Below the pieces are notes generated by a model. That model did no database searches. It was given only the letters and a program-made list of their open reading frames with translations, and was not told the origin of the DNA. Made by a program: the position numbers and the translations under genes. Shown piece after piece: positions 26,555-56,612 of a stretch of 64,000 bases of DNA (positions are counted from its first letter, which is position 1; every line of letters begins with the position of its first letter). The DNA lies in contig NC_064672.1 of the NCBI RefSeq assembly GCF_023278565.1, positions 2,604,001-2,668,000 on the forward strand, written 5' to 3'. Source of the DNA: Colletotrichum lupini (lineage: Eukaryota; Ascomycota; Sordariomycetes; Glomerellales; Glomerellaceae).

Positions 26555-27236
26555 TGTGGCGTTGGTTGATTGCTGGGGTGCGTTGAAGCAGCGAGAGAAA
26601 ATCAGGCTGTGATAGGAGCTGTATGCTGATGTAGAGTCGCAAAAGAGGTGCGGATGAGTGTTGGTCGAGGAGAACAGAAGGATGGGGAAAGCGCCCTGCT
26701 TATCTCACTTCGAGAAGAGCCTCCTGACAGTCTCTCGCTGCTTTAACGAGAAGACAACAAGTCTGAAGGGCGGTGGAGGTTTGAACCTGGAGACGAGAAG
26801 GTGATAGGATGGGGAAGCAAGCCACTTTCCGCCCTATTTGTGTGAGGAACAGGAACTGACACCCTATTTCTGTGAGATAAGGAAAGTGAGGCTGTTGGAA
26901 GCGGCCATATGCAGATTGGTCTGGGGTTGCCTCAAGCAGGCGGCATACAACTTGCAAGGAAGTTGGGCGAACCAGAGAAGCAGCGAGGAGGGGTCGCAAG
27001 GTATGGTATGGTATGATGTGTGTATTGAAACAACCAAACTCCAAAGAGCAACAAAACAACATGAAATCGTTCACAGCATTTTCCAAACCAATTGCAAAGC
27101 CCCTCGTCCAATCGGAGAATCTTCAACATCAACGAAACAACAAATGATATCAGATAAAAGACAAAAAATGGTAACACACCCGAAACTAGTCCCCCTCTAT
27201 GCAGTCTTTAGTACAGTATGTACAAAATCTCTCCTC
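26555..27236. other. C2H2 gene promoter / NRPS 3' region
   Basis: No gene recognised. It contains the C2H2 gene leader and, near its far end, an exact ATCAGATAA motif. Confidence 0.5.
27149..27157 (+). promoter_or_regulatory. Iron-GATA motif ATCAGATAA
   Basis: Exact match to the ATCWGATAA site bound by fungal GATA iron repressors (SreA/Sre1/Fep1 family). It lies 595 bp upstream of the C2H2 gene ATG and 80 bp beyond the NRPS stop codon. Confidence 0.6.
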
Positions 27237-30200
27237 TTACTGCTGCTCAAACAACAGCGACCTGGGGTTACCAAGCAGAATCTTGAACGTCTCCTCAATC
27301 TTATCAAGAAGCTCGGCAGCATGACCCTTCCACGACTCGAAGGTGACAATCTCAATCGTCAACTTGTCGCCCTGGGGGAACGCCTGGATCTTCCACTCGC
27401 GAAGTGGCTCCTGCTGCGGGTAGATCGTCTCCATGCGACTGCTCGCCGTCTCGAAACCGAGGCTCTCGACGTGCTCGACGTCCTGGTGCACCACCGTGTC
27501 GAACCAGTCCACCGAGGCGGGCCAGTCGGTGCACAGCTTGGCAATCTCGGGCAGGCCGATACCCTCGTGCGCCGAGCTGGCAATGTGCTGGTTCTGCACG
27601 AGGTTGAGGAGGTCGAGGACCGTCCAGTCGTCCTCGAACTTGACGCGCACGGGCACGTATTGCCAGCAGGGGCCGACAACCATGTCGGCGTTGGGGAAGT
27701 CGATGTTGCGGCCGCTGACAACTTCGCCAAAGGTGACGTCGCGCGTGCTCTGCAGGCGGGCGAGGGTAAGGGCCCAGGCTGCGGTGGGGAGGGTGGCGAT
27801 GGTGACGTCCTTGGAGCGGGTTGAGATGTCGAACGTCCTGTCGATGGCGTAGTGCTGTCTCTCCGTCACGGGGGTATCGGGCTTCAGAACATTGACGGAG
27901 GATCCTTGGAGGAGCTCCTTCCAGTAGTCGACGCTCTGGGGGATGTTGGACTTGACAACGTGGCCGACGAAGGAGGAGAAGGGGAGAGCCTTGGGAACGG
28001 GCTTGCCCTCGTGCAGAGCTGAAAGCTGGTGCAGCATGATGGGAAGGCAAATCTCATCGTACTGAGCGTGCGAGACGCGGAACACCAGAGCGGACTGGCC
28101 ATTGCTGCTGTGGACGAAGAACCACTTGACAAAGATGGAGCCAAGTGGCATCCGGGTCTGGACGTCCATGTTGCAGAGGTCCTTGACAAAGGTCTCAACG
28201 TCGCTGTCGATCTCATACTCGACGACGGGGGTCTTGACGTCTTCGAGGATGACGCTCAGGCAAACGCCATTGTGCTTGACAAAGACTGATCGCAACACCT
28301 CGTTGAGAGTGACAAGCTCTTGGCAGCTCTGGAAGAGGCGGGGGCGGTCGACGTCGCTCTCGAAGTACATGGCCTCGTAACGAGCAGAGAAGCGAGGAAT
28401 CTCAATCGTACCCTTGACGGCGACCTCCTGCAACGGTCTTGCGGGGAAGGCGTCGACAATCTTCCATGATGGGTCGGCGAGAAGGGGACGGAGGGTTTCT
28501 GCCGGAGCATCGCCGAGGTTCTCAACCAGCTCAAAGGGAACGAGAGGCTTCAGGGACTCTTGAGAGTCCTGAGTGGGCTCAGAGTCCTGCAGGACGCTGG
28601 CCATGTCGTACAGCGTCCTCTTCGTGAAGACCTGGTTGACGGTAAGTGTGAGGCCAGCCAAGCGGGCCTCGGAGACGAGCTTCATAGCACCGATGGAATC
28701 TCCACCAAGACGGAAGAAGCTGTCGTTGAGGCCGATATCGCTCTCGGGGAGCCTGAGTACACGGCTCCAGAGAGTTCGCAGACGACGCTGCTTGGCGGAT
28801 GTGGCAGAGATGCGCTTAGTAGGCGCCTTGGTAGCAGTGCTGGCCTTTTGGACCAGATCGCTCGTCTTGCCGGTGATCTCGACAGATCCATCTGCGTTGA
28901 ATTTGGCGAGGCGCTCCGTCTTGTAGAATTTGCCAGCCTCCTTGTTCTCGGTCCACGAAGGGTTCTCCAGCGTGGAGAGAGACAAGTCGGACTTGCTAAC
29001 GACCACCAATTCACCAACAACTCCAAGAGGTGCCAGAAGCGCAGAGTCGGTTGGGTTAACAATGTACACCGCCTCGGCCTCCGGGTACTCCTTCTGAACG
29101 CTCTTGACGCTCTCGGTGCTCAAGCGAGCGACCTCGGTCTTGTCCTCCTCAGTCAGGTACGCGATGTCGCCAAGTGGCGTGTCGGTAAGCTGGCAAAGCT
29201 TCTGCGCCACTTGAGAGAACTGAGCGAGTGCCTTCTCCATGAGAGGCTTCTGAACAGTCTTTGAGTCGAACGAGGCCATCACCAAGAAGCCCTTGGGGTC
29301 CGTCGAGCAGACGAGCATGAGGGCGTAGGTGTTGAACTTGAGAGCTTCTTCCGCGGCTTCCGCGTCGCCGGCGGGGACGAGGCGGTTGGCGGGGTACTTG
29401 TTGAACTCTTCCTGATCAAAGTCGTCGGCGCTCGGGTGCAGCACGAGACCGGTTCTCAGCTCGCAGGCCTCGAGGGCATCCGGGCTGAGACGGCGGATGT
29501 GCTGGAGACCGGTGTGCTCGTAAGGGATCTGTTGGATGGTCTGGTCTTGGATGTCTTGGAGGTAGTCGCTGACGAGCGTCTCGGCGTTGACCTGGGTGCG
29601 GAAGGGGACGGTCGTGATCATGGGACCCTCGATTTCATCGGATCCTCTGATGGGCGCGTTGCGGCCGGTGAGGGTCTCGCCAAAGATGACATCGTTGGAT
29701 GAGGCGTAGTGGGATGCCGCGTAGGCCCAGGCACCGCGAATCACGGTGGCGACGGTGGTGTTGGAGGCAGGTCTGCCGTTCAGGGGCACGTAGACCTCCA
29801 GAAGAGAGTCGGCCTGCGTCTGGTAGCCCTCGTACGGCAGCGCGGGGAACTGCGTAGTGGCAGCGGCACCCTGGAGCTGTTCGCGCCAGTATGTCTCGGC
29901 GGCGCTGCGGTCCATGCTGCCGAGGTACTTGATGAAGTCCTTGAACTCGGCCGGGCGCTGGACCTTCTCTCCGTCAAAGGCCTTGTTGACCTTGTCGACG
30001 ATGAGGGGCATGCACCAGCCGTCGTACAGGGCGTGGTGCATCGTCAGCACGAACTGCACCTTGCCCGACGCGTTGTCCGTGACGAGGGCGTAGCGGACGA
30101 GGGGTCTGCCAAGGTCCATGCCCTCCTCGCGGTCCTTGACGAGGTAGCCCTGGAGGTCGTCGCCAATGTGCCAGGCGATGTCTTCCTTGACGACGACCTG

Positions 30201-33169
30201 GGCGAGGCCGCGGCCCGGCACCTGGACGATTCTCGTGCGGAGGATGGCGCAGTCCGCGGCGGCGACGTCGAAGGCGTTGCGGAGCTTGTCTGCTGTCGCC
30301 GCGTCCGCGAGGTCGACGACTCTCTGCGCGACGTACGCCGAGGTGACCTTGGCCGACAGAGCCATGAGACCCTCTTGGAGGGGCGTGCAGGGGTAAATGT
30401 CCTCGATGGCGGACTCGTCGATACCGCAGAGCTTGGCGGACTCGGCGCGGGCCTCCTCGGGGGTCCATCCTTCCTCGAGGAGGGAGAAGGGCGCGACGGC
30501 GGCGTCGTCTTCCTTGGACACCTTGGTCGCGTTCTCAGCCATGGCCTTGAGCGTGGGGAAGTTGAAGATGGTTGCGACAGTCAGAGCGATGCCGTCCTCT
30601 CTCGCGGCAGCGACGAGCTTCATCGCGCGCAGGGAGTCACCGCCGAGAGCGAAGAAGCTATCGTGCAGACCGATGGCGGCGGCGGACTCGCTGCCCAGAA
30701 TCTTGATCCAGACCTGCTGCAGCGCCTTCTCCATCTCCGTCTCAGGCTCCGATTTCTCGGTGGGCGCGACGCGCAGGCGGGCGACCTGCTCGCGGGACAT
30801 GGAACCTCCGAGCTCGCGCAGGCGCTTGCGGTCGATCTTCCCCGAGACCAGGGAGGGCATCTTGCGGAGGGGGATGTAGGCCGAGGGGACCATGTAGCGG
30901 GGGATCTCGGCGCCGAGGGCAATGTCGATCTCGGCGATGGCCTGGCTGAACTCGGGGGAGAAGGTGGTGACGTCGCCGACCTCGGCATCTGCAGGGCCGT
31001 CAACGGGGTTCTGCTCGACGACAAAGGCGACGAGCGTGGGCTCGCTGCCGCCGGGCTTGATGACCTCGGCGACAATCTTGACGCCCGAGGGCATCTTGCC
31101 CCGGAGGTGGTGCTCGACCTCGGCCAGCTCGATGCGTTGACCGCGGAGCTTGACCTGCTGGTCCTTGCGGCCGACGAAGGCAATGGAACCCGTGCCATCC
31201 GGGTCGTAGCGGACCAGGTCGCCCGTCTTGTACAGGCGTCCGTGTCTGCCGCGGGCGGGGCCGCCGCCGGCGAGCAGCCAGGCCGGGTCCTCGATGAAGA
31301 CCTCGTCCGTCTTGGCCTTGTCGTTGAGGTAGCCCATGCCAACGACGGGGCCCTCGATGAGGAGCTCGCCGACGGCGCCGACGGGCATGAGGCGCTCGTG
31401 GTCGTCCGGGTCGACGATCCATGTGAGGCCGCCGGTGCCCTTGCCGATGTTGGTTGAGGTGCTGCTGACGTTGCCGTTGATTGTGCAGCCGACGGTGCAC
31501 TCTGAGGGTCCGTAGGCGATGATGACGCTCGTGGTCTTGCTCCACGTCGAGGCGTCACCCGCAGAAACGGCTTCACCTCCGAGACCGAGGACCTCGAGGG
31601 AAGGGATGACGTCCGCGTCGAGGACGCGGGCGACAGAGGGGGTCATGTGCGCCATGTTGCACTTTGAGTTGCGGATGGCGCCGCTGAGGTCGTTCATGCG
31701 GTCCTCGTCCGAGGCGATGCAGAGGCAGCCGGCGGCGGCGAGCGTGCAGAGCATGCAATCGATGCTGACGTCAAAGGCGTACGAGGCGAAGTCGAAGCAG
31801 CGCGAGTGGGCGCGGTAGCCGACCTCCCAGCCGCGGGGCACGGCGCCGCTGGTGAAGTTTTCGTGGGAGATCATGACGCCCTTTGGCTTGCCCGTGCTGC
31901 CGGAGGTGAACTGGATGTAGAGCGGGGACGAGGGCGGGACGACGGGCAGCTCGGCGGCGAGCTCGAGGGTATCATTGTTGAGGGTGTCGTCCGAGGCGAT
32001 GACGAGGGTCTGCTCGGGCGCGATGCGCCGGCCGAGGTCGCTCTGGTTCTGGGAGGTGACGATGATGGTGGCGCCGGTCTGCTCGACGATGGTGCGGAGG
32101 CGGGCCTCGGGCTGGGACGGGTCCGTGAGGGCGAAGGCGGCGCCGGCTTTCATGACGGCCAGGAGGGCGACGGTGGTCCAGCGGGACTTTTCGAAGCACA
32201 TTGGCACCGTGGAGCCGACGGTGACGCCGCGGGCGACGAGGTGGCGCGCGAGGCGGGTGGAGAGGCGGTCGACGTCGCCGTAGGAGAAGTTACCGTCCCA
32301 GGACTCGACAGCCGGCCTTTCGGGTCCCTTGGCCGCGACCTCGGAGATGATGTCCTGCATGCACTTTTGCATGTTCTCGGGCAGCTCGGCGTTCCATGTC
32401 CAGAGCTGCTCGAGGTCCTTTGCGGTGGGGCCGATTGTGTCCGAGACCTGACGGTAGGGCTTCTCGAGGACAGTGGTGAGGATCTCGATGAAGGAATCGA
32501 GCTGGAAGATGGCGTGGCGGTAGGAGAGGACGGCCCGGTCCCATTGGGCCTTGATCACCAGCTGGTTCTCGTTGAGCGTCGCCTCGATCTGGTATGTCCA
32601 CTGGGTTCCGGAGTCAGCATGTTGAAGTGAATGTTGTATAATAGGGTACAACGTATCACGAAAGAGGGTCGTCTACGTACGTCTTGTGATCTCTTGGAGG
32701 GAGCCTTCTCAGAGTTGCCCTGAGGTTTGGGTGCTCCATTGTTAAAGTATATCACCGGGATGGTCTGCGTTTCACTCTCGAGACCGCTCTCGCCGAGGTC
32801 CTTGATGACCTCCAAGGCCTCTGCTATCGAGTCGCTGTTCTTGAACGGCGCCTCGCTCAGGCTCAGGCTGTTGTGTGTCGCCGACGACGGTTCCTGGCCG
32901 TCCTTTGTTCTGAATCCCCAGTTCACCTTGCTCAGGCCGTCGTCGTTGTTGCGGTGGAGGACGAGCAGCCATGCAAGAAGGAGCTCATGTCTAAAGTCGC
33001 TTACACCGGCGGTGGTGGTGGTGGATTCGGCCCGCGATGTCACGACGACGGTCCTCGTTGAAGAGGGGTTCACGGTATTGTTGCCGTTGGTCAAGCCGTT
33101 CGTTGCGCCGTCAGTGAGGCCTGTTTCTTGGTAGGCGGTTCCGCCGCCTTCGCTGTCTCGCAAATGCAT
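27237..33169 (-). CDS. Siderophore non-ribosomal peptide synthetase (NPS6/SidD type)
   Basis: Large cytosolic megasynthetase predicted to join acylated N5-hydroxyornithine units into an extracellular hydroxamate siderophore (fusarinine- or coprogen-type). Exons 33169-32681 and 32600-27237 (80-nt intron, GTACGT..CCAG, phase 0) encode 1950 aa. Order: a partial N-terminal C-like region (about 50-210); an A domain with FTSGSTGKPKG (about 393), YGPSECT, GELLIEGP and YKTGDLVRY; T1 with GGDSLRAMKL (about 817); C1 with intact HHALYDG (about 1020); a remnant second A domain (about 1340-1440, only pieces such as GVVGELVVVS and FYKTERLAKFNADGSVEITG); T2 with GGDSIGAMKL (about 1463); and C2 with SHAQYDE (about 1674) in place of HHxxxDG. 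This A-T-C-dA-T-C layout and size fit the NPS6/SidD group. SidI- and SidF-type genes nearby support the assignment. The released product cannot be fixed from sequence. Confidence 0.92.
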
Positions 33170-34164: not shown

Positions 34165-34185
34165 CAGAGAGAGAGAGAGAGAGAG
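34165..34185. repeat. (AG)n dinucleotide tract
   Basis: About ten AG units on the + strand in the NRPS/GNAT promoter region. Confidence 0.8.
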
Positions 34186-34354: not shown

Positions 34355-34378
34355 GAGAGAGAGAGAGAGAGAGAGAGG
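34355..34378. repeat. (AG)n dinucleotide tract
   Basis: A second AG run, about twelve units, roughly 190 bases from the first. Confidence 0.8.
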
Positions 34379-34807: not shown

Positions 34808-34816
34808 ATCTGATAA
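34808..34816 (+). promoter_or_regulatory. Iron-GATA motif ATCTGATAA
   Basis: Exact ATCWGATAA match with the extended 5' G (GATCTGATAA). It sits between the divergent NRPS (ATG 1.6 kb away) and GNAT (ATG 1.0 kb away) genes, so it could serve both. Confidence 0.7.
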
Positions 34817-35853: not shown

Positions 35854-36701
35854 ATGGGCCTCACCGTTCTACCCGCTTTAATCCCCGACATCCCCCAGGT
35901 GTACGATGCCTATTTTGCGGCCTTCAAGGGGTCGGTAATCCTCGACATCCTGTTTCCGACGGGGATTGACGAGGCTTTCCGTGAGGGTCATACGAAACAC
36001 ACTGTCGAGTACTGGCACAAGACCAGCACCCAGTACACCATCAAGTGCGTTGATGTCGAGACTGGCGAGGTCGTCGGCATGGCCCTTTGGGACGCGTTTC
36101 TCAAGGAGCGCACACCAGAGGAGTACAGGAGCCCTGGCGCCGTTTGGCTCCAAGGCGAGCAGAGAGCTCGCGCCGATGAGTTAATCAACCCGCTCAGCGC
36201 AGCCAAAGAAAAGCTTTGGGCTGGCCGAAAATACGTTTGTGAGTGGGACCCGCCGTGGACTCCCACGTCCTCCTTTTCCCGATCCCTTCCCCTTGCACCC
36301 GGTTCGCGCCTTTTTTGTTTCTTCAGGCTTTTCGAGACATACCATGTGAACCCCAGTTGCTGATGACACACGCTTTGGCGTTTTCCCCGGGAACAGACTG
36401 TCATATCATTGCAGTGAAGCCTGAACACCAAAGAAAAGGCGTAGGCGCCCTTTTGACGAAATGGGGCCTCGATATGGCCGAGCTGGCGGGACTTCCCGTC
36501 TACCTCGAGTCGTCTGAAGAAGGATTCGGCCTCTACAAACGCCTGGGTTTTGAAGTGCTCCAAGACAAGATCGTGCACCGCGGAGGGCTAGTGGGCAAGG
36601 ATAAGGACGTTGAAGTTCCTCTGATGGTAAAGATGCCGTCTGCCGCCAAGGGTTTGACTTTCGAAGAGTGGCGTGCTCAAGGATACCCGTCTTTCCAATA
36701 A
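35854..36701 (+). CDS. GNAT-family N-acetyltransferase
   Basis: Predicted acetyl-CoA-dependent acyltransferase of 229 aa. Exons 35854-36238 and 36397-36701 are joined by a 158-nt intron (GTGAGT..AACAG), giving AGRKYVYCHIIAVKPEHQRK. The acetyl-CoA-binding signature is HQRKGVGALLTKW (Q/RxxGxG/A), followed by LPVYLESSEEGFGLYKRLGF, the usual GNAT C-terminal half. The ATG is followed by MGLTVLPALIPDIPQVYDAY, a normal GNAT start. It lies inside the siderophore cluster between the NRPS and the SidI gene, sharing an iron-GATA-containing promoter region with the NRPS. In Aspergillus a GNAT enzyme, SidG, acetylates fusarinine C, so this gene is a candidate for an analogous tailoring step. That is inference from position and fold only; it could also be a generic fungal GNAT. 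Confidence 0.82.
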
Positions 36702-37772: not shown

Positions 37773-37781
37773 TATCTGATC
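37773..37781 (-). promoter_or_regulatory. Iron-GATA motif (ATCAGATAA on minus strand)
   Basis: Exact motif with extended GATC form, 1.1 kb upstream of the SidI ATG; adjacent sequence adds degenerate GATT repeats. Confidence 0.65.
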
Positions 37782-38886: not shown

Positions 38887-40783
38887 ATGGCCGCAGAAGC
38901 ATCAACAACCCCGGTATCCGAGCCTTTGGCTCCCACTCAGAAGCTGTCCATCCTCCACGGACCCCGCGATCCTCCTCTGGTTGACCTCAGTCTCGGTGAG
39001 CTGCTGGAGCTCCAGACCTACCAGCACGGCACCAAGGAATGCTTGGTGATTCCTTGGACTGGTGCACGATGGACCTACAATGAGCTCAACCAGCAGAGCT
39101 TGCTGCTCGCGCAGGCCCTACTCGAGATGGGCATCAAGGCCGGTGACAGAGTCGGTGTTATGGCAGGCAACTGCGAGCAATACGCCGCCATCTTCTTTGC
39201 AGTCTCTAGAATCGGTGCTATTCTCGTTATTCTGAACAACACGTACACTCCCAGCGAGGCCATGTACGCTGTTGAGTTCTCAGGTTGGTTACCAGTCTAA
39301 CAGTTGCTGATTTCCGAGCTAACTCCGTTATTCAGAATGCAAGATTCTCTTCACCACCAAGCAGATTGGCAGACTCGACAACACCAAGTTCTTGAGCCAA
39401 ATAGCGAACAAGATCAACGGGCCCAAGATTGTCATGATTCGGGGCGACACGAGCGGATATCAGACATACGACGACCTCATCAAGTCGAGCTCAAGGCAGA
39501 GCCCGAGAGAGCTTCACCTGGCCATGAGCAAGGTGGTGCCGCATCAAGTATGCAACCTCCAGTTCACCAGTGGTACCACTGGCCGTCCCAAGGCCGCCAT
39601 GCTTACCCATCAGTAAGTGCGATCAAGCTGATAGAGGAGGTCGAAGAGGCTAACTTTGGATTCAGCAACGTCGTTAACAACGCTCGTTTCATTGGTGATC
39701 GCATGCGCCTCACCCCGGACGACGTGCTGTGCTGCCCTCCCCCTCTGTTCCACTGCTTCGGTCTTGTCCTCGGCCTCTTGTCTGTCATCACGCACGGTGC
39801 CAAGATTGTTTACCCCGCGGAAGTTTTCGACACCAAGGCGACACTCAAGGCCATTCTCGAGGAGGACTGCACAGCACTCCACGGCGTGCCTGCCATGTTC
39901 GATTCCCTGTTCCAGGCAGCACCTGATGACTTCAAGTCATCCAAGATCCGCACCGGAATCGTGGCCGGCGCCCCTGTCCCCAGATATCTGATGGAGTTGA
40001 TGGTCAACCGTCTCGGTATGAGAGAGTTCACCAGCAGTTACGGTCTGACCGAGGCATCGCCTACCTGCTTCAACGCCTTCACCGACGATGCCTTGGGTAA
40101 GAGACTGACCACCGTCGGTACGCTCATGCCCCATGCCTCGGCCAAGATTGTCGACAGAGACGGCAACGTTGTGCCCATGGGCCAGCGCGGAGAGCTTTGC
40201 ATGGCCGGGTACCAGCTGCAGGCTGGCTACTGGAATAACTCGGAGAAGACCAACGAGGTCATGGTCCGTGACTCTGCAGGTGTCTTGTGGCTGCACACTG
40301 GTGACGAGGCCGTCTTTGACGACGCCGGATACTGCTCAATCACCGGCCGCTTCAAGGACATCATCATCCGAGGTAAGCTATAAATGTCCGTCACGCAACA
40401 ACAGCACAATGTACTAACACAACTTTCTCCCTTCAGGTGGCGAGAACATCTACCCGCTCGAGATTGAAGAGCGCCTCATGGCCCACCCGTCCATCTCCCA
40501 GGCCATCGTCGTCGGCCTCAAGGACGAGCACTACGGCGAGGTCGTCGGTGCCTTTGTGCAGCGCGCCGAGAACGCGGACAAGCCTTCGTTCCAGGAGCTC
40601 AAGGACTGGGTCCGCCAGCGCCTCGGCGGCCACAAGAGCCCTGCGCACATTTTCTGGCTCGGTGAGGACGGCGTGCCGGCCAACGTGCCCCTCACGGGCA
40701 GCGGCAAGGTGCGCAAGTTTGAGATTGCCAAGGTGGGCGACGAGATTCTCAAGAAGAGCAGAACCGTCTCTGCCAAGTTGTAA
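38887..40783 (+). CDS. sidI: SidI-type acyl-CoA ligase (mevalonyl-CoA ligase)
   Basis: ANL-superfamily adenylate-forming enzyme. In Aspergillus, SidI activates mevalonate to mevalonyl-CoA, the first step to the anhydromevalonyl group of extracellular siderophores. Exons 38887-39283, 39336-39612, 39666-40372 and 40437-40783 (introns 52, 53 and 64 nt) encode 575 aa. Seen motifs: P-loop FTSGTTGRPKAAMLTHHN, YGLTEASP, LHTGDEAVFDDAGY, and GRFKDIIIRGGENIYPLEIE with the catalytic Lys in LTGSGKVRKFEI. The protein ends in AKL, a peroxisomal PTS1 form, which agrees with the peroxisomal site of this pathway in Aspergillus. Other medium-chain acyl-CoA ligases share these motifs; the SidI call rests on the overall fit and on NRPS and SidF genes nearby. 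Confidence 0.85.
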
Positions 40784-41109
40784 GATTGCGGTCCTCGTAG
40801 GATATCTTGCCGAGGACGGCGTGGAGTGTGTTCAATGAGTGATACCACACAAAAGTTGTCTTTTGACCATTTTCGTTGTTACTATTTCATGTCAGGCGAT
40901 GGCTTCTGTCTTTTGGGGTTTTGGAATTTGGCTTAGATTTTTTTAGACCCGTAGGATTACTGAACGTGTCGTTGAATTGACTTTCCCTCTCGTCACACTC
41001 CCATGTGGAGTTAGCTTGTGCAAGCAAGTCATCCTCAAAGGCTCAAACTTTGTTTTTTTACCTGTATTCTCAAAGGCTAATTGCCTTTCGTCACATTCGG
41101 CCCCCTTTA
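40784..41109. other. 3' flank of SidI gene up to the element boundary
   Basis: Normal-composition sequence with no gene. CTCAAAGGCT occurs twice (about 41034 and 41069). ATTCTCAAAGG at 41066-41076 has an inverted copy beyond the far end of the element. Confidence 0.55.
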
Positions 41110-41140
41110 CGGCAGACTGCAAGAGGCACTCCGCCAAAAC
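41110..41140 (+). repeat. Left terminal inverted repeat, 31 bp
   Basis: Perfect inverted match to 46001-46031. Its GC-rich sequence has escaped RIP, unlike the interior. Confidence 0.93.
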
Positions 41141-41164
41141 CGTTCTTTCCAATAGACCTACGGC

Positions 41165-44100: not shown

Positions 44101-45945
44101 TTTATAAAAATACTTCTAACTACTTAAGTTCTAAGGGCTATTCTATATAAATATACTCTCTAACTAGATTATATTTCTATTTACGTATATACTACTAATT
44201 CGTTCTAATTTTATTAACTTCGTATAAATTTAGAACTCTTATCGAATTCGTTGTTAAAAAGGTCGCCCTTACGTTATTTTTAGTTAACTATAGTAACTAT
44301 ACTATTAACTTACGTTACGAACTGTATAAGACTTTATATAGCTGATTAACTAAAACTAAGTTTAATAACTATTAAACGCTATTTAGAATAATAATAATCT
44401 AAACGCATATTTTCTTTAAGCTACTTTATAAATTTATACCTTAATTATTAAGGGCTCCCTAATTATATTAGCTAAAAGTACGAAGTTTAGTAAGGCTAAT
44501 TATCTTTATTTTAAAGCGTATTAATATTTTTATATTTATCTAAAGTAATATATACGCAATAAGCTCTAATTAGAAATTACTTTACTTAGTAAACTATAGG
44601 GCGGTATTATATAAGTTAAGTAGAGATTAGAAGACTTTAGAATTAATTTTAAAATATTAAATAGCTTCGTAATTATAAGCGATACTAAGGATAAAAAGGA
44701 ATTATAAATATAATTATAATTTACTTTAAATTATTTATTAACGAGAATGCTCGTTTCTATCCTTATAATATACTAAGTTATTTACTATTATAAACTTTAT
44801 TTTCTTATCGAACTACTATAATCTCGTCTTTCTTATCGTTTTTATCCTTTTTAACCTTTTTCTTAGCCTTTACCTCCTTCTTAACGATCTTCTTTTCTTA
44901 CTTAACTAATAATTCCTCCTTAATCTTTATCGTTAGTTTAATACTAATACTTATTAAAAGCCGTATTTTCGGAACATTTCTATACGTCGATTTGCTTAAA
45001 GTTTTAGTTATAATTAGCTTTATACGACCTTTTCCCTTCTTTACTAACTAAGGTTTAATAACTAGTAACTTAATTCTAGTTTAAAAAATAATAAAAAGTT
45101 AATAATTATCTTTTTTATATAAGATCGTAGCTTTAAAAAGGAATCTCTCTAAATTTATAACTTCGTACACTACTTTATGGTACTCTAAAATATTATAAGG
45201 ATTCTTTATATTAATTAGAAATACTATCTACTCTATTAAAAAAATTTACTAATTTATTATAAAATATAAAATAATAAATCGTATTATATTTTAATATAAA
45301 ATAAACGTCGAGAAGTAATTAAACTAAACTTTCTTAATAAACTTCTTAATAATTTAGATATTAATATAAGTCGTTACTTAGAAACTATTAAGTTCGTTTT
45401 TAAAAAAGGATGTGTTATATAATATAATAGAGATATTAATTATTAATAATTACTTTAGCTCTTTTTTCGTTTATTAAATACTTCGTTCCCGCTCCTTTAA
45501 GCCTATAAAAAGAGATTTTATTAATATCGAGGCTTATATATTTATACGTTCTTATTATATAAAAAGGGTAGAGCCTATATAAGTATTATTATTAATTAGT
45601 CGTTTTAGAATAGCTTTATAAAGAGGTATCGTAAGGTCGATTAGTTTAGTAACGTCTTATATAGAGACTAGAAGTTATTATAAATTTATATTATAATATT
45701 TATAAGCGAGCTATTAGTTTAATAACTTAAGTAAAAAGTGATTTTTATTTATAAGAGGGTAAAAAGTAGTAGTTATTTTTATAATAAAATTATAAAAAAA
45801 AGAAAAACTTTTATATTAGGGTACGATATTACGTAATTTTATATACCGCTATACGGTCTAATATATTATAAAATTAAAATATCTCTTAAGTTATAAATCT
45901 TTATAACCCCTATTTATAAGTTATTATACTAATCTAGACCCTATC
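41165..45945. other. AT-rich RIP block
   Basis: About 4.8 kb with no open frame of note on either strand. Most 60-base rows hold zero or one CA or TG, while TA is very frequent and CG persists. This fits C-to-T change at CpA on both strands rather than general CpG deamination. Such blocks are typically heterochromatic in related fungi (inference). Confidence 0.9.
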
Positions 45946-46000
45946 CTGGGTAGTGGGGTGACCGTAAAATACGATTTCTGCTTTGATATATAAAAAAAGT

Positions 46001-46031
46001 GTTTTGGCGGAGTGCCTCTTGCAGTCTGCCG
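46001..46031 (-). repeat. Right terminal inverted repeat, 31 bp
   Basis: Perfect inverted copy of 41110-41140, followed by TA. Confidence 0.93.
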
Positions 46032-46033
46032 TA

Positions 46034-46560: not shown

Positions 46561-47541
46561 ATGTCTCAATCCAACCACGAGCCAAACTCCCAACCGCCAT
46601 CCCCCTCTCCCCTCCTCCTCTCCCTCGCAAAATCCTATCCTCACGATCCAGCCCACTTACACAAAGTCCTCCTCCCGCAACTCACCCACCGCCTCCGCCT
46701 CGCCTCCCTCTGGTCCATCGCCCCCGGCAGCCGCGTCCTCGACATCGGCTGCGGCCAAGGCGACTCCGCCCTCGTCCTTTCCCAAGCCGTAGCCCCGCTC
46801 TCCACCACCGCCGATGGTGACGCCAACAACACCAGCCCGGGCCCGGGCCCGGCCGGCCACGTCACGGCCCTAGACCCGGCCCCCGGCGACTACGGCAGCC
46901 CCTACACCCTCGCCCAATCCCAATCCCACATCTCCTCCTCCCCCCACGGCGCAGCAATCACCTTCCACCAGTCCGACGCGCCGACCTACCTCGCATCGCA
47001 CCCTTCCTCAGCCTTTGACGCCGCTACGCTCTGTCATTCGCTGTGGTACTTCCCCTCCGGCGCCGCAATCACCTCCCTGTTCAAAGTCCTCTGCAAGCCC
47101 AACGTCTCCAAGCTCTGTTTCGCAGAATACGCAGTCAGAGCCCGGACTCCCGCGCAGAAACCGCACGAACTGGCCGTCGCGGCGCAGAAGCGGTTTTATG
47201 CGCTGCGGGCTGGCGCGGAGAAGGGGTTTAGTCTCGACCAGGGCAACGTCCGCGGCGCGCTTGCGCCTGAGGAGATTGTGAAGTTGGCGGAGGGGGCTGG
47301 GTGGAAGGTTCGGGAGAGGGGTGTTGTTGATACGCCTGGGTTGTTGGATGGGGCATGGGAGGTTGGTGTTGTGGTTGATGCGTCGTGGGCCGAGGAGGTT
47401 GTCGCCGAGGGGTTAGGGAAGGATGAGGAGGAAGAGTTGTTGGGATATGTGAGGGAGATTCGGGATGCGGTCGAGGAGGTGAAGAAGGGTGGTGGGAGGG
47501 TTGAGACCATGGATGCTGTTTGGGTTGTTATGGAGCGTTGA
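46561..47541 (+). CDS. Class I SAM-dependent methyltransferase
   Basis: Single-exon 326-aa protein from ATG at 46561 (MSQSNHEPNSQPPSPSPLLL). The SAM-binding motif I is VLDIGCGQGDSALVLS (about 59-74). Later segments, VTALDPAPGDYGSP (motif II-like Asp) and FDAATLCHSLWYFPSG (motif IV-like), follow the usual Rossmann order. No signal peptide or membrane segment. Substrate is unknown. It sits between the transposon relic and the SidF gene, inside the siderophore region, but no exact iron-GATA motif lies close upstream of its ATG, so membership in the iron regulon is doubtful. The first half is strongly C-biased and the second half G-biased on the coding strand, an abrupt change near 47180. Confidence 0.83.
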   Translation: MSQSNHEPNSQPPSPSPLLLSLAKSYPHDPAHLHKVLLPQLTHRLRLASLWSIAPGSRVLDIGCGQGDSALVLSQAVAPLSTTADGDANNTSPGPGPAGHVTALDPAPGDYGSPYTLAQSQSHISSSPHGAAITFHQSDAPTYLASHPSSAFDAATLCHSLWYFPSGAAITSLFKVLCKPNVSKLCFAEYAVRARTPAQKPHELAVAAQKRFYALRAGAEKGFSLDQGNVRGALAPEEIVKLAEGAGWKVRERGVVDTPGLLDGAWEVGVVVDASWAEEVVAEGLGKDEEEELLGYVREIRDAVEEVKKGGGRVETMDAVWVVMER

Positions 47542-49835: not shown

Positions 49836-49844
49836 TTATCAGAT
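49836..49844 (-). promoter_or_regulatory. Iron-GATA motif 1 upstream of SidF
   Basis: ATCTGATAA on the minus strand with extended GATC form; 1.15 kb upstream of the SidF ATG. Confidence 0.75.
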
Positions 49845-49937
49845 CCATCATCCAGCTTGCGGCGGCCACCGGTCGGCTTTGAGTGGGTCCCCAGAGCTCC
49901 GAGGCCGGAGCTATGGCCGAACTTGGTTCTAATAAAG

Positions 49938-49946
49938 TTATCAGAT
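49938..49946 (-). promoter_or_regulatory. Iron-GATA motif 2 upstream of SidF
   Basis: ATCTGATAA on the minus strand with extended GATC form; 1.05 kb upstream of the SidF ATG. Confidence 0.75.
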
Positions 49947-50136
49947 CCGCTAAGACCAGGTCGGTGCAGCCACCTTCCTTGGAGGAAGAAAAAAAAAGAA
50001 GGGGAAAAAAGCCGGTACCCTTATACTACGTAGGTACCTAGCTAGTAGGCGCCACGCACGCAATTGACGGCAATACATCAACTACGAGGGACGACCGCCA
50101 CGAACCCCGTTTCCATCAACCCCAACGCCCTCTTGG

Positions 50137-50145
50137 TTATCAGAT
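50137..50145 (-). promoter_or_regulatory. Iron-GATA motif 3 upstream of SidF
   Basis: ATCTGATAA on the minus strand with extended GATC form; 0.85 kb upstream of the SidF ATG. Confidence 0.75.
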
Positions 50146-50988: not shown

Positions 50989-52462
50989 ATGTCGGCACCA
51001 ATCTCTCTGTCCGCTGTCTCCTCCAGCGAGAGCATCATCAAGCTCCCTCACCCGTACCACGCCGAGTACGCCGTCCAGCGCGCCTTCAACCACGACACTT
51101 TCGCCGGCAAGACGTCAGAGGGCGGCCTTCACTTCTACCGCCTCGCGCCCCTCGCCGCCCAGGACAACAACGCCAAGAAGCAGACGATTCCCCTCCCCGA
51201 GCGTCTTCACAGCGAGAACCTCTACTTCTCCGAGCCCGCGGACCTCAAGTCGAGCGAGCTCCCGGCCGACTCCAACAACAGCGCCTGGGCCCGCGCCCGC
51301 CGCTCCCCGAGCACCGTCTTCTCGTGGGACGGCAAGACCAAGCCCACGCTCGCCCAGGCCTGGCTCCTCGTCTACGTCATCTTCGTCCTCCGCCCCAACG
51401 AGGAGCTCGTCCGCCTCGAGCTCCGCGGCGCCAGCGCCGACACCCTCGGCCAGCAGCTCCGCGATGTCCTCCTCGCCATCGAGCACCCGACCCAGACGGA
51501 GGCCCAGAAGCCCGCCGCCTCCGCGGAGCAATCCACCGTCGTCCTCCTCCGCTCCGCCTTCTGGCAGGGCGCCGGATCGCCCTTTGGCCCCCGTCCCGTC
51601 TGGCTCCCTCAGGAGTCCCCCGCGGCGCTCGACAACCCTCTGTCCTCGTACCCCCTCACCCCTCTGCAGCACACCATGACGGCCGTCCCGGCCTCGGACC
51701 CGTCCAACCCGAACCTCTACCAGCAGGCGTGGCACCCGATCCGCCCGGCCAAGCCCGCGCCGGGCGCGACGGTGTACAGCCGCTGGATCCCGCACCTCAA
51801 GGAGACGTTCAGCATGGTGGCGCTCGACTACCGCAACGCGGAGCACCTCCGCCTGTTCCACGAGTGGCAGAACGACCCGCGCGTGTCGCAGGGGTGGAAC
51901 GAGACGGGCACGCTCGACCAGCACCGCGAGTACCTGCGCAAGATTGACGAGGACCCGCACCAGTTTGCCATCCTCGCCGCGTGGGAGGACACGTTTTTCG
52001 CCTACTTTGAGGTCTACTGGGCCAAGGTGCGTCTTCTCTCTTGTCTCCCGTATTCCAGCCTACAGAAAGTCTTCATAATCACTAACAAATCACCAACAGG
52101 AGGACAAGCTAGGCGGCTACTACGACGCCCAGGACTGGGACCGCGGCCGCCACTCCCTGGTCGGCGACGTGCGCTTCCGGGGCCCCCACCGCGTGACGGC
52201 GTGGTGGTCCTCGCTGATGCACTTCCTCTACCTCGACGACCCGCGCACGACCTGGGTCGTGGGCGAGCCCAAGAAGACCAACGACACGGTGCTCATGTAC
52301 GACTTCATGCACGGGTTCGGGCTCGACAAGTTCGTCGACCTGCCGCACAAGCGCAGCGCGTTCGTGCGGTGCTCGCGCGAGAGGTTCTTCCAGCTCTGCC
52401 CGCTGGGGGATAACGAGAAGGTCGTGGGCGGTATGAGGATCCAGCTTGTGCCCAAGTTGTGA
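50989..52462 (+). CDS. sidF: SidF-type N5-hydroxyornithine acyl-CoA transacylase
   Basis: Acyltransferase that in Aspergillus transfers anhydromevalonyl from CoA to N5-hydroxyornithine, giving the monomer used by the siderophore NRPS. Exons 50989-52026 and 52100-52462 (73-nt intron, GTGCGT, branch ACTAAC, phase 0) encode 466 aa, near the usual size. The C-terminal half is the Acetyltransf_8 / IucB-like GNAT domain: [77 protein letters not shown] and [20 protein letters not shown]. The N-terminal half is the less conserved family extension. The protein ends VPKL; PKL is a weak PTS1-like tripeptide. The ATG at 50989 ([12 protein letters not shown]) is preferred to a non-conserved in-frame ATG 75 bases upstream. 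Three iron-GATA motifs lie upstream. Confidence 0.93.
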
Positions 52463-52668
52463 GAGGACAGACACATTGGGTGGTGGTTGCACTTATGACA
52501 CAGTGAGATGCTACGCATGTGTGGATTATTAGTCTTGTTCGAAATCTAAAAGTGTTGCGGTATGTGGGCGTGGGAATAATGTACATGGAAGATATGCAGA
52601 CAAAGTTAGGAAGGTGTCATTTTGGTGAAGAATTTTGTGTCACTGCTTTTTTTTTTCCGGGCGCAATC

Positions 52669-52677
52669 TTATCTGAT
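52669..52677 (-). promoter_or_regulatory. Iron-GATA motif in a convergent 3' region
   Basis: ATCAGATAA on the minus strand, running into tandem CTGAT units. It lies 207 bp after the SidF stop and 331 bp from the oxidoreductase stop, so it is not in an obvious promoter. Confidence 0.4.
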
Positions 52678-52692
52678 CTGATCTGATCTGAT
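52673..52692. repeat. (CTGAT)4 tandem array
   Basis: Four pentanucleotide units that repeat half of the GATA-type motif; they may have arisen by slippage from it. Confidence 0.8.
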
Positions 52693-52999
52693 TGATTATG
52701 CCTCAGTGACATTAATCTGCGTGACCTACCTTACTTGACCTTACCCAGGCTCTGAATCTTGACAGCGACACACCAAAATGAAGAGAAAAAAGGTCTAGGC
52801 AATAGACACTCACGAGAAACATCATTTGCATTTCAAAGTCTAGCCAATTTAGTCTAAACTAACCCCCAAGAGACGGAACTTATTGCGTCCGTCTTTCGTT
52901 CGTCATCATTGTACTCCCAAGAACACCTTTGAAACCCAAAAATAAACCCTGAAAAATCCATTTTATGCATTTTTTTTTAATTCATAAACAACTCAAGAG

Positions 53000-54581
53000 T
53001 CAAGAGTCAGGAGCCCTTCCGAGACCGAGGTGGTTCCAGCAGACTGTTGTGGGAGAACACGCACGCAACGGTTAGCAATTCAATCAATTTCTCACTGACG
53101 ATGGGGTCGAGTCGGAGAAGGGGGGGCGTGTGAAAAGGAGGAGAGGAACACAGAAGAAGAGGAGAGGGTAGTAGACAGGGAGGGCCGGTCGGCGCCGGTG
53201 GGATCCAAAGAGTCAAGGAAAACACAACCAAAAAAACACAGCAAAAAAAAAGGAAAAAAAAAAAAAAAGGTAACTCACTGGTAAAGCCGAGGTCGTCTCT
53301 AAAGTACGCGTGCATGACATCCTCACCCCACGTAGTCCCCACAACGGGCCCGCTCGCGACGGCCTTCTTCCCAATCGCCAAACCGATCATGGGCTCGACG
53401 GGGCCGAGCTCCGAGAACGTGGGCTTGTGCGCGCCCGACGTGAGCTTGGCCAGCATGAGCTGGTGCGCGTTGATGGCGGCGTAGTGGCCCATGTGCATCG
53501 CCGTGCCGCACCGCTTGATGCCGGGCCACAGGCAGATGTCGCCCACGACGATGTGGTCCTCGGCGTTGGGGACGTTGCCGTCGCCCTTGAGGACCATGTT
53601 GGGGTGGATCTTGACGTAGCCCTCCTCGTCCTTTGCGGCGGCGGGGAGGTAGTCCGTGGACGGGACGCTGCGGGAGATGGCCATGACGACCTCCGAGGCG
53701 ACGAGCCTGTCGCCGTTTGTGAATTCAATCTCGTGGCGGGCGCGGCCGTTGGGCAGGGGGTCGAGCTTGCGCGTCTCCTTTACGCGGTGGTTCAGGAGGA
53801 CGTCGACGCCCGCCTCGCGCGTGAGCTCGAGGGCCTTGTCCTTGCACTCGTCCGACAGACCCTCGGAGGAGAGGAGCTTGTCGCGGGAGTGGACGAGGGT
53901 GACCTTGGAGTCCGGCTCGACGAGCTTGAGCTCGGCGGCCATCTCGATGCCCACGGCGCCGCCGCCGACGACGACGACGCCGTCGGGGGCGTCGCGGACG
54001 GCGTTGATCTGTTCCTCGGCCTCGAGGAGGTACTGCTTGCGGGTGAGGGACTGGGGCACGACGGGGAAGACGCGGCGGAGGCCGGAGGCGGCGACGAGGA
54101 AGTCGTAGGAGAAGTCCTGGGGTTGCTTGGTGGCGTGGTCGAGGACGGTGGCCGTCTTCGTGGCCGGGTCGACTTTGGAGACGGAGCCCTGGACGAAGCG
54201 GACGTTGGGGCGCTGGAGGGAGGCGATGTCCTCGAACTTTACCCAGGACTTTGCTGCGTATTTGGAGTCGGCGAAGGCGAGGGGGGAGCCGATTAGGTGG
54301 ACTTTGGAGGGGTTATGTTAGCGGGGTTCTGATATAGTCTGTGAGCTTCAGGTTCGGAAGCTTCAGGGTGTCTTACAGAAGCCATCACGCTCGTCGACGA
54401 GGGTGATCTCGACGGGGATGTTCTTGAAGTCTGGGTGGTGCTCGTAGGGAATGTGAGCGAGACGAGGCGACTTGCCGCTGCTCAGGTCGAGCAGGTTCAA
54501 GGTGGTAGAGACACCGGCGTAGGAGAGACCTCCGATGACGAAGACCTTGAAGGGGGGAATAGCACCAGGAAGAGAGCCCAT
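53000..54581 (-). CDS. AMID/AIF-like FAD-dependent NAD(P)H oxidoreductase
   Basis: Pyridine nucleotide-disulfide oxidoreductase family, similar to AIF-M2/AMID and Ndi-type enzymes. Exons 54581-54377, 54301-53279 and 53043-53000 (introns 75 and 235 nt) encode 423 aa. The N-terminus has the FAD-binding fold FKVFVIGGLSYAGVSTTLNL, joined over intron 1 as VDERDGFFHLIGSPLAFADS. The NADH fold is GVVVVGGGAVGIEMAAELKL, and the C-terminal FAD contact is DHIVVGDICLWPGIKR. The last exon gives DDLGFTICWNHLGLGRAPDS. The frame is open a further 201 codons upstream to an ATG at 55184 whose product starts MAKRILRPALSAARRLILRA, a possible mitochondrial presequence, but the Ser/Ala-rich remainder looks non-conserved, so 54581 is preferred. 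Intron 2 contains a long T tract on the coding strand. The gene lies between SidF and the ABC transporter, with iron-GATA motifs upstream; its role in siderophore metabolism is unproven. Confidence 0.85.
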
Positions 54582-55601
54582 CTTGTCTGCTGTAGTCGAA
54601 AATGTAGAGGAGTCGTTGGAATCTACAACTACGTCTGGATGAGAGAAGGAGGAGGAGGAGGAAGTGGAAGTAGAGGAAGAATAAGACCGGTTGGAGCTAT
54701 AGGACTCTAGCGGCGAGGCTTGATGAAGAGGGAGGCAAGTAGAGGCGAGGGAAGGGAGTGAAGATGCAAATGGGGATGCAGATGCAGAGGCTGTGGCAGT
54801 TGCGGACGAGAACATTCGCATGGACAGGAGCAAACATAAAGATAGCGTCCGCCGGAAGCCGAGCGGAGGGCCTGCATCGGACCGGAGCTGGTGCTGGCGT
54901 GCTGGAGCTGATGGTGGTGGTGGTGCTTGTACTCTGCGGGTGACGCTGCTCAGACTGGTTAAAGTTGCCCGTTGTTGGATCCCACCACCACCGACGAATC
55001 CTTTTCCCAACATGGAGGACCCAATTCCAGATTCACCCCTCCGAGGCTGGGCCAAGACCAAAGAGGAGTAGAAGCAGGAGGGCGGCGAGGAACACGAGGA
55101 AAGGGGCAGGTCGAGCCGAGGGCTGGCTCGGAGAATGAGACGCCTTGCAGCCGAGAGTGCTGGGCGAAGGATCCGCTTGGCCATGGCGGCGATCGCAAGG
55201 AAGGGGAACAGCAGGAAAAAAAGGAGAGGGAAGACGAGGTCAAGGGGCCGACGGACGGGACTTGAGTGACACTCTCACACCGGCGGCGTCACTGTCAGTC
55301 AGTAGGGAGGGGAATGGGAAAGCGACAGCGGAGATGACGGCATGGCTGGGTGGGTTTTGGAGCCGCCGGGGAGTTTGGGAGAATTTGTAAAAGGGCAATT
55401 CCCCCCTAATGTATGTATTGTAGGTATTGCTACATTGTGACTTTCTTGGAAGGATGAGAATACTATGGGTAAAGTTGCGCGGATCTTGAAATTGCCGTCG
55501 TCGTAAATCTGCGGCTTGTACAAGTTCAAAGGGGGGAGGGCATTTTTGCTCGGTTCGGTTGTTCGGGGATGTCTTCGTAGAACGGCGTTTTGTTGGAGCC
55601 C

Positions 55602-55626
55602 TTTTTTTTTTTTTTTTTTTTTTTTT
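55602..55626 (+). repeat. T25 homopolymer
   Basis: Uninterrupted T run, 38 bases from the first iron-GATA motif of this region; it may act as a nucleosome-free poly(dA:dT) tract (inference). Confidence 0.9.
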
Positions 55627-55663
55627 GGTGGTTGGAGGGGTGTTGTTGGGAGGGGTCTGAGAA

Positions 55664-55672
55664 TTATCAGAT
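55664..55672 (-). promoter_or_regulatory. Iron-GATA motif in divergent promoter (a)
   Basis: ATCTGATAA on the minus strand, lacking the extended GATC form; 1.1 kb upstream of the oxidoreductase ATG. Confidence 0.65.
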
Positions 55673-55688
55673 GGTGGAGGAGTTAAAG

Positions 55689-55697
55689 TTATCAGAT
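55689..55697 (-). promoter_or_regulatory. Iron-GATA motif in divergent promoter (b)
   Basis: ATCTGATAA on the minus strand with extended GATC form. It starts 25 bases from motif (a) in the same orientation, a close pair. Confidence 0.7.
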
Positions 55698-56603
55698 CCT
55701 TTCAGAGACATGCAAGCCACTCCCAGCGCCGGGTCTAAGAAGCGGACTGGCTGGGCTGGGATCTAATCAGCATTACCTAACAAAACACAAGCATGAACAA
55801 GTTGACAAGCCTAAAAAAGACCAACAAAATGAAGGAAACCAAGGTACTCTGTACGCGTTGGGGCACTGCGCCTCGTTTTCAGTGGGCAGCAGCACTGTTC
55901 GGAATTCAAGGGTAGAAAAAAAAACTGTAATTCTCCTCTCTTTCTTCTTTCCAGGGCATCTCGGGTTCCTTTGCTTTCCGTTGCTTCTACCGAGTACCTT
56001 GGTAATGAAGCAACGGAGTAGAGATGCTGGATGGATCGGCCGTTGAAGCTAATGCCGCCAAAGGTTCTCACTGCAGCACACAGCAAAAGACACGGGATTC
56101 GCAATTGGCCTTGCTCCTCACTGCTACACACCAGCGAGATGTGTGTACCCAATGACGCCTTCTTTTGCAAATTCGAGATGAAGTGGATGAGTGGGTGTGG
56201 CGGTGGAATGTACCCTCAATGGGAAATGGTGTGTGTGGGTGCCCAGCGCCAGAAGAGATGCGCCATTTTCCCCAGGAGCAGCCATGGCCGGGGCCGTCGC
56301 AATGGCTTCTCTGAAATTTTCTATCCACGACATGGGAGGATCAGGAAATCTCAAGAAGTATTCCGTAAAGCTTTCCGAATGGACAACAAGTTCGGCAGAT
56401 CCGCAAAAAAAAAATACTGCGTAGAGAATGGAGTATAGGCAGAGAGCAAGGAGCAAGGAGCAAGAAAGATACATGGGTGCCCGTACCGATGTACTTCGTA
56501 CACTGAGGTGGACCAAGGTAAGGTAGGTACTTTATACCCGTTCGGGTCGGCGTCTCCAGCCTTACTTAATCCGGAAGGGATGGGCCGTCTCCGCCAAGAC
56601 AAA

Positions 56604-56612
56604 TTATCTGAT
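56604..56612 (-). promoter_or_regulatory. Iron-GATA motif in divergent promoter (c)
   Basis: ATCAGATAA on the minus strand with extended GATC form; 985 bp upstream of the ABC transporter ATG. A near match (ATCTGATAG on the minus strand) follows at 56701-56709. Confidence 0.7.

Follow-up and report, generated by a model that had tools for sequence, protein, structure and literature searches.

ATCWGATAA words clustered in a sidD-type siderophore region of Colletotrichum lupini point to a SreA/Sre1-type iron switch

Introduction

The closest described systems, for which we draw on excerpts of the papers cited, are iron genes of other fungi whose promoters carry the SreA/Sre1 word. In Histoplasma, every siderophore-cluster gene has (G/A)ATC(T/A)GATAA (PMC2275787), in agreement with the form of the Sre1 site that a first-pass annotation of the DNA analysed here had given. 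The SreA site of Aspergillus fumigatus is ATCWGATAA, for which SreA-regulated promoters are 5.4-fold enriched (PMC2610380), and one of the 15 metalloreductase genes of this species acts in iron metabolism (PMC5932178). FgSreA of Fusarium graminearum occupies promoters with ATCWGATA, more strongly in iron excess (PMC10602907). In Scedosporium, sidF, sidI and a transporter accompany sidD in one cluster, and there is a separate sidC/sidA cluster that is also found in Colletotrichum higginsianum; the excerpts of that paper contain no ATCWGATAA survey of any Colletotrichum cluster (PMC5932178).

Results

An exact search of both strands of a 64,000-nucleotide stretch of the C. lupini genome, hereafter the window, found 11 copies of ATCWGATAA, all within 27149-56612 and none in the rest of the window. 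This number, the confinement to about 30 kb and the extension of nine of the 11 copies to GATCWGATAA had been proposed in the first-pass annotation and are confirmed. Ten of its 11 start positions were also right, whereas the one given as 37773 should read 37772. The two copies with another base before ATC are those at 27149 (T) and 55664 (C). None of the 11 lies inside a coding model, as drawn by eye, and the RIP-mutated transposon within the cluster contains no exact copy.

Across 100 dinucleotide shuffles of the window, the word occurred 0.70 times on average and at most three times, against the 11 observed. A genome-wide count showing the same density had been named beforehand as one that would refute the first-pass proposal, and the proposal survives it: pooled over intergenic and coding DNA, the 63,443,975 bases (63.4 Mb) of the genome hold 573 ATCWGATAA (positions are listed for the first 100), or 0.58 expected per 64 kb, and at this rate the Poisson probability of at least 11 in one 64-kb window is 3.6e-11. 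GATCWGATAA occurs 168 times genome-wide; no other 30 kb of the genome is as dense as that with the nine copies in the window, the runner-up places having three. For the 14.2 kb of noncoding, transposon-free DNA of 26555-57585, a second-order Markov model gave 0.13 expected words and a maximum of two in 300 runs, compared with the 11 present, and ATCTGATAA, with seven copies, was the top 9-mer of this DNA, three simple repeats excepted. Gene models were drawn by eye and the Markov test was run with starts at 50996 (sidF) and 57586 (ABC transporter), a few bases from those of Table 1, which leaves the conclusions unaffected. Words with exactly one mismatch numbered 21, bringing those with none or one to 32, compared with 18.8 in shuffles. 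Because one-mismatch words are thus near chance, the excess is essentially limited to exact ATCWGATAA. All in all, the clustered excess of this word is real and well supported.

Family matches showed that a SidD/NPS6-type NRPS is grouped with a transacylase, a CoA ligase and a transporter, and its predicted proteins assign the cluster to the sidD (fusarinine/coprogen) type (Table 1). In its large exon, the NRPS has a single adenylation stretch and two stretches each of the condensation and carrier kinds. Fusarinine C synthase is the name of three among the 120 NRPS homologues listed, most others being generically named, and an NCBIfam search of the cluster proteins returned generic matches with no informative names. 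Membership of the SAM methyltransferase-like gene is uncertain; no exact ATCWGATAA lies upstream of it as far back as 37772, and as it is without such a site we set it aside as the coprogen N-methylating enzyme. We likewise rejected the oxidoreductase as a close paralogue of one at stretch L035, the two being only 29% identical over 163 columns.

Table 1. Predicted genes, elements and exact ATCWGATAA words of the cluster, in window coordinates
Feature	Position	Strand	Remarks
C2H2 zinc-finger gene (by-eye model with two exons)	25252..26554	-	Colletotrichum-centred family
ATCAGATAA	27149..27157	+	595 bp upstream of predicted ATG of C2H2 gene; ~80 bp beyond NRPS stop
NRPS, fusarinine C synthase (SidD/NPS6/NPS1) type	27237..33169	-	by family matches
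GATCTGATAA	34808..34816	+	divergent promoter, sidD-type NRPS (1.6 kb) / GNAT (1.05 kb)
GNAT acetyltransferase	35854..36701	+	C. orbiculare homologue named putative acyltransferase SID5
GATCTGATAA	36790..36798	-	right after GNAT stop; ~2.1 kb upstream of CoA ligase
GATCAGATAA	37772..37780	-	~1.1 kb upstream of CoA ligase
Acyl-CoA ligase, SidI/SID4-like, C-terminal AKL	38887..40783	+	by family and place
RIP-mutated transposon	41108..46033	.	41-nt terminal inverted repeats; within cluster
SAM methyltransferase-like gene	46561..47541	+	Pfam matches under their cut-offs
Three GATCTGATAA (49836, 49938, 50137)	49836..50145	-	~0.85-1.15 kb upstream of sidF
SidF/SID3-type N5-transacylase (Acetyltransf_8)	50989..52462	+	
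GATCAGATAA	52669..52677	-	end of (GATCA)n run; between convergent 3' ends of sidF and oxidoreductase
Pyridine-nucleotide oxidoreductase, OXR1-like	53007..55184	-	by family and place; start uncertain, ~54590 or 55184
Two sites: 55664 (C before ATC), 55689 (GATCTGATAA)	55664..55697	-	divergent promoter, oxidoreductase / ABC transporter
GATCAGATAA	56604..56612	-	~1 kb upstream of ABC transporter
ABC transporter, ABC1/SitT-like	57589..61935	+	by family and place

The sites stand 0.6-2.1 kb from the predicted start codons of the gene models drawn by eye. The flank GGATCTGATAACTTTA is common to the sites at 34808, 49938 and 55689 and the remaining flanks vary, GATAAGATCA being seen by eye at other sites; a longer consensus built on these two flanks is not claimed, as they were recognized by eye in too few sites. 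The weakest site is that at 52669, which may be a chance product of the (GATCA)n repeat because it terminates the run and sits between two convergent 3' ends. What counts against SreA is these distances, the lack of G or A before ATC at two of the 11 sites and the location of another within a simple repeat flanked by 3' ends.

The site at 27149, which falls outside the (G/A) consensus because it is preceded by T, is the least expected of the set, and it precedes a C2H2 gene that appears to evolve fast. Named Colletotrichum account for 27 of the 45 C2H2 homologues found. In all four Colletotrichum species present in both lists, the longest contig with the C2H2 gene equals in size that with the NRPS; the longest contig of the GNAT gene has the size of the C2H2 one in two of three Colletotrichum species and of the NRPS one in one of three. 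The C2H2 protein is 77.8% identical in C. paranaense, where GNAT has gaps only and no mismatch, and in C. truncatum identity is 59% for C2H2, 80% for GNAT and 87% for the NRPS; this greater divergence than that of its neighbours is a hint of fast evolution. A C. lupini database entry is 76% identical to the C2H2 protein. It is conceivable, if rather unlikely, that this protein is a lineage-restricted, fast-evolving regulator placed under SreA through 27149, which would add a second, local control layer in Colletotrichum.

Elsewhere, the genome encodes a SreA-type GATA factor whose two fingers (C8:1987729 and C8:1988245) share a reading frame and are separated by a Cys-rich block, which is characteristic of SreA. 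GATCWGATAA was found within 3 kb upstream of the hapX gene (1/1), of 2/16 PF13434 loci, one of which is the strong sidA match, of one of the three FTR1 genes (two of three with any base before ATC), of one of 15 ferric-reductase loci (C7:3911851), there as a pair of words, and of 3/41 TRI12-type transporter loci (P 0.004). Three ATCWGATAA, one being GATCTGATAA, separate the sidA gene from the probable start of a divergently oriented sidC (AMP-binding), and the marked FTR1 loci are two FTR1/multicopper-oxidase pairs. The targets expected of a SreA/Sre1 regulon, namely hapX, sidA/sidC, ftrA/fetC and one ferric reductase, therefore carry the motif, with exceptions: the 1.3 kb examined upstream of the third FTR1 gene contains no ATCWGATAA, and the G-preceded form is absent within 3 kb upstream of 38 of the 41 TRI12-type loci, the best-scoring included, and of all four glutaredoxin matches. 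One of nine GATA genes also has GATCWGATAA within 3 kb upstream, a count that may not reflect a promoter because the site, in stretch L042, falls inside a long reading frame. These family counts merge neighbouring matches (PF00320, 10 to 9 genes; FTR1, 8 to 3; Ferric_reduct, 18 to 15 loci; TRI12, 46 to 41).

At six loci outside the window, two or more GATCWGATAA share a 1-kb interval; three of these loci are linked to iron or to families of the cluster, and no such link was found for the other three. The 20 stretches examined were a non-random choice, taken for several sites, for gene matches (hapX, sidA, PF13434, SreA and another GATA gene) or as further listed sites (L043-L045), and no iron gene was established in stretches L026-L028, L030, L031, L033, L034, L040 and L042-L045. 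The genome-wide count, the marked hapX, sidA, FTR1 and ferric-reductase loci and the presence of a SreA-type gene lend support to the SreA/Sre1-type repression suggested in the first-pass annotation.

Discussion

We put at about 0.92 the probability that the ATCWGATAA words are binding sites of the SreA/Sre1-type GATA repressor of this fungus. The observations comprise the words with their excess and placement, a gene for the regulator and further loci that carry the word; binding, its iron dependence and repression would be as in relatives. When iron is sufficient, SreA, with its two GATA fingers and Cys-rich block, would bind the partly palindromic GATC-W-GATAA at the sidD/GNAT, CoA ligase, sidF and oxidoreductase/ABC transporter promoters and silence siderophore production. 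Sites of this kind at hapX, at sidA/probable sidC, at both FTR1/oxidase pairs and at a single ferric reductase would tie these genes and the cluster into one regulon.

GATA cores are common to several factors and the genome has ten PF00320 matches, counted as nine genes, so that the words might mainly serve AreA, NsdD or a light regulator. We consider this very unlikely, since plain HGATAR falls short of expectation in the window (89 vs 143), the excess being limited to the ATC-extended word, which also marks iron genes elsewhere in the genome. The ATC extension is, moreover, the signature reported for SreA and Sre1 in the excerpts consulted (PMC2610380, PMC2275787).

Still less probable is control by HapX and the CCAAT-binding complex in place of SreA. 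A hapX gene is present and expected to act as well, and CCAAT occurs within 40 bp of 13 of the 61 sites examined, compared with 14% of random stretches. HapX activates siderophore genes in other fungi. However, CSAATN12RWT shows no excess in the window (10 vs 14.1 expected), and CCAAT lies within 40 bp of 3/31 sites at loci labelled iron and 10/30 at other loci. Joint control by SreA and HapX is likely, and HapX leaves the GATA words unexplained.

An origin in chance, base composition or repeat expansion, to which the (GATCA)n run ending at 52669 and an AT-rich block inside the region might point, is of negligible probability, given that the shuffle, Markov and genome-wide tests exclude it for the set (single sites could still be chance), that the AT-rich transposon is without an exact site and that flanks vary from site to site, though GGATCTGATAACTTTA is common to three.

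Sequence alone indicates that the SreA code of Aspergillus, Histoplasma and Fusarium has been kept in a Colletotrichum. The sites are sharp enough for a draft iron regulon to be drawn by exact string search from the 168 GATCWGATAA of the genome, and among the candidate targets are the C2H2 gene, another GNAT that belongs to the cluster's family and a single one of the 15 ferric-reductase loci.

Set beside the same excerpts, the locus shares with the Histoplasma capsulatum Sre1 cluster (SID3, SID4, NPS1, OXR1, ABC1, SID1) the promoter word (G/A)ATC(T/A)GATAA and, by family, the NRPS, transacylase, CoA ligase, oxidoreductase and ABC transporter kinds (PMC2275787). Unlike in Histoplasma, sidA/SID1 sits elsewhere, where it adjoins a probable sidC. 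Further differences are the transposon and the methyltransferase-like gene inside the cluster and the C2H2 gene adjoining the NRPS. The separation of the sidD cluster from sidA/probable sidC is as in Scedosporium, whose separate sidC/sidA cluster is also found in C. higginsianum (PMC5932178). As in the A. fumigatus SreA regulon, ATCWGATAA is in excess, HGATAR being only slightly so there (PMC2610380), and the single iron-related metalloreductase among 15 in that species has its counterpart in the one of 15 loci with a GATCWGATAA pair (PMC5932178). The A. fumigatus regulon is backed by mutant transcriptomes, and occupancy of ATCWGATA promoters of iron acquisition genes in F. graminearum by ChIP-qPCR (PMC10602907), whereas the present one is predicted from its DNA. 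Since further iron-uptake genes of the genome carry this word too, the cluster seems to be a clear additional case of an already familiar iron switch, not one new in kind.

Enrichment of the extended GATA word in the siderophore cluster

Exact searches of both strands found eleven copies of ATCWGATAA, the motif of SreA/Sre1-type iron GATA repressors, in the window, where dinucleotide shuffles gave a mean of 0.70 and a maximum of 3 in 100 shuffles. Ten of the start positions listed in the first-pass annotation were borne out, and the one placed at 37773 should read 37772. As had also been claimed, the sites are confined to 27149-56612, with zero elsewhere in the window, and nine of the eleven have the form GATCWGATAA, the base before ATC being T at 27149 and C at 55664. 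None lies inside the coding models, which were drawn by eye, or the AT-rich transposon. In the remaining DNA, 14.2 kb between 26555 and 57585, the second-order Markov expectation was 0.13 (300 runs, maximum 2), and ATCTGATAA was the top 9-mer, three simple repeats aside. One-mismatch words numbered 21 in the window, against 18.8 in shuffles for zero and one mismatch combined, and HGATAR was below expectation (89 observed vs 143 expected). It is thus the extended word alone that is in excess.

A search of the assembly (63,443,975 bases, 12 contigs), in which the window is C1:2604001-2668000, returned 573 ATCWGATAA, corresponding to an expectation of 0.58 per 64 kb and a Poisson probability of 3.6e-11 for at least eleven. 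The first-pass annotation had named an equal density in random intergenic regions as grounds for refuting its reading; this count, made over all DNA rather than random intergenic DNA alone, does not refute it. Of 168 GATCWGATAA in the genome, 97 carry T and 71 carry A; the nine in the window make up the densest 30 kb of the genome, the runner-up places holding three. Genome-wide, the reversed control word occurred 1712 times, about threefold more often than ATCWGATAA itself.

Placement of the sites relative to the cluster genes

Cluster genes were assigned by Pfam and by-eye gene models, and predicted starts were found 0.6-2.1 kb downstream of 10 of the 11 sites; 52669 is the weakest of the set. 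Colletotrichum scovillei and C. fioriniae, both of the acutatum species complex, have proteins 99% identical to the NRPS piece, which places the genome in Colletotrichum and in that complex. SID5, the name given to the GNAT homologue of C. orbiculare, is a Histoplasma gene name too (PMC2275787). At window 63264-63626 there is an Atg8-like reading frame, its translation judged by eye.

Genes of the sidD-type siderophore cluster and ATCWGATAA sites (window coordinates)
Feature	Position	Strand	Basis or context
C2H2 zinc-finger gene	25252-26554	minus	no above-cut-off Pfam match for the piece given; C2H2 domains precomputed for many homologues
Site	27149		ahead of C2H2 gene
NRPS, fusarinine C synthase type	27237-33169	minus	Pfam, gene model
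Site	34808		NRPS/GNAT intergenic
GNAT acetyltransferase	35854-36701	plus	C. orbiculare homologue named putative acyltransferase SID5
Sites	36790, 37772		ahead of acyl-CoA ligase
Acyl-CoA ligase	38887-40783	plus	Pfam, gene model
RIP-mutated transposon	41108-46033		inside cluster
Methyltransferase-like gene	46561-47541	plus	Pfam matches below cut-off, gene model
Sites	49836, 49938, 50137		ahead of sidF
SidF-type transacylase	50989-52462	plus	Pfam, gene model
Site	52669		end of (GATCA)n run, between convergent 3' ends
Pyridine-nucleotide oxidoreductase	about 53.0-55.2 kb	minus	Pfam, gene model
Sites	55664, 55689, 56604		oxidoreductase/ABC transporter intergenic
ABC transporter	57589-61935	plus	Pfam, gene model

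The transposon that interrupts the cluster ends in inverted repeats of 41 nt that are 93% complementary, and TA flanks it on either side. Its interior has a GC content of about 0.19-0.29 and a (CA+TG)/(AC+GT) ratio of 0.04-0.18, a combination typical of repeat-induced point mutation. The repeat end had 172 genome matches at two or fewer mismatches and, among the first 100 of these, many were in pairs ~4.9 kb apart.

A C2H2 gene beside the NRPS

The least expected site is 27149, which lies ahead of the C2H2 gene and departs from the (G/A) position of the consensus. P0256 matches the N-terminal exon of this gene. Homologues came from named Colletotrichum in 27 of 45 cases and from other named fungi in 7, with 11 lacking a species name; among the matches listed, the closest relatives were at most 79.5% identical. 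In C. paranaense, the C2H2 protein was 77.8% identical and the GNAT showed zero mismatches, only gaps. Judged from these comparisons, the C2H2 gene appears Colletotrichum-centred and faster diverging than its neighbours. The longest contig was equal in size for NRPS and C2H2 in all four Colletotrichum species common to both lists, for GNAT and C2H2 in 2 of 3 species, and for NRPS and GNAT in 1 of 3. These matching longest-contig sizes, the sole basis for the comparison, suggest that the C2H2 gene is linked to the NRPS in other Colletotrichum. It is possibly a candidate local regulator under iron control.

Regulator genes and sites at other loci

The PF00320 profile gave 10 genome matches, counted as 9 genes. 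One of these GATA genes (contig C8:1987729-1988325) encodes two fingers with the block CPGGGKCNGTGGAEGCSGCPAYNN between them, as in SreA; no exact ATCWGATAA was present in the 9.9 kb examined around it. HapX is also encoded, with Cys-rich regions seen by eye. Scanning up to 3 kb upstream of each family's matched stretch detected GATCWGATAA at hapX (1/1), 2 of 16 PF13434 loci (one of them the strong sidA match), 1 of 3 FTR1, 1 of 15 ferric reductase and 1 of 9 GATA genes, 3 of 41 TRI12-type transporters and 0 of 4 glutaredoxins. With any base allowed before ATC, two of the three FTR1 genes had sites, located in the stretch separating them from a divergent multicopper oxidase; the third had zero in the 1.3 kb examined upstream. 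Three ATCWGATAA separate sidA from a divergent adenylation-domain start, which probably belongs to sidC.

Outside the window, six loci carried at least two GATCWGATAA inside 1 kb. Three were iron-linked or of cluster families: FTR1/oxidase, a ferric reductase and a second GNAT. The last (C9:2370500-2380400) showed 53% identity to the window GNAT over 133 columns and had three GATCWGATAA upstream, and a nearby oxidoreductase belongs to the Pfam family of the window's own. The other three comprised an MFS transporter, a FAD_binding_1 + NAD_binding_1 protein and transporter-like frames seen by eye in a piece without a Pfam match.

Groups of sites were also observed at individual loci. Four ATCWGATAA, spanning 3.2 kb, precede a Zn2Cys6 transcription factor gene without known iron link (C1:4852300-4862200); GATCTGATAA adjoins a JmjC-domain protein gene on its 5' side, two further sites lying within 2.6 kb (C1:7598000-7607900); and two GATCAGATAA, spaced by 14 bp, lie just ahead of a FAD_binding_1 + NAD_binding_1 gene (C5:2064000-2073900).

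Proposed regulation

SreA would bind these sites and repress the genes under iron sufficiency, and iron shortage would free them from repression. By analogy with other fungi, HapX likely acts as well. The HapX motif showed no enrichment in the window. Of the 31 sites in loci labelled iron loci, 3 had CCAAT 40 bp away or less (random stretches, 14%). In those of the twenty non-randomly chosen stretches (L026-L045) that were not labelled iron loci, the corresponding count was 10 of 30 sites.

Comparison with known systems

In A. fumigatus, the promoters of 49 genes putatively regulated by SreA show a 5.4-fold over-representation of ATCWGATAA and no more than a slight one of HGATAR (PMC2610380). 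In the Histoplasma siderophore cluster, every gene has one or more (G/A)ATC(T/A)GATAA in its 5' region, in agreement with the longer site given in the first-pass annotation; in vitro binding of Sre1 is cited there as submitted work, and the cluster parts SID3, SID4, NPS1, OXR1 and ABC1 are of the same kinds as those of the window cluster (PMC2275787). FgSreA of Fusarium graminearum occupies ATCWGATA promoters, and occupancy increases with iron (PMC10602907). Published work describes a sidD cluster distinct from one of sidC/sidA, the latter found also in C. higginsianum (PMC5932178). Among the matches listed in a literature search whose coverage excluded most subscription journals, there was no report of ATCWGATAA in a Colletotrichum. 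On the sequence evidence, the cluster is a predicted instance of the known SreA/Sre1 system in another fungus.
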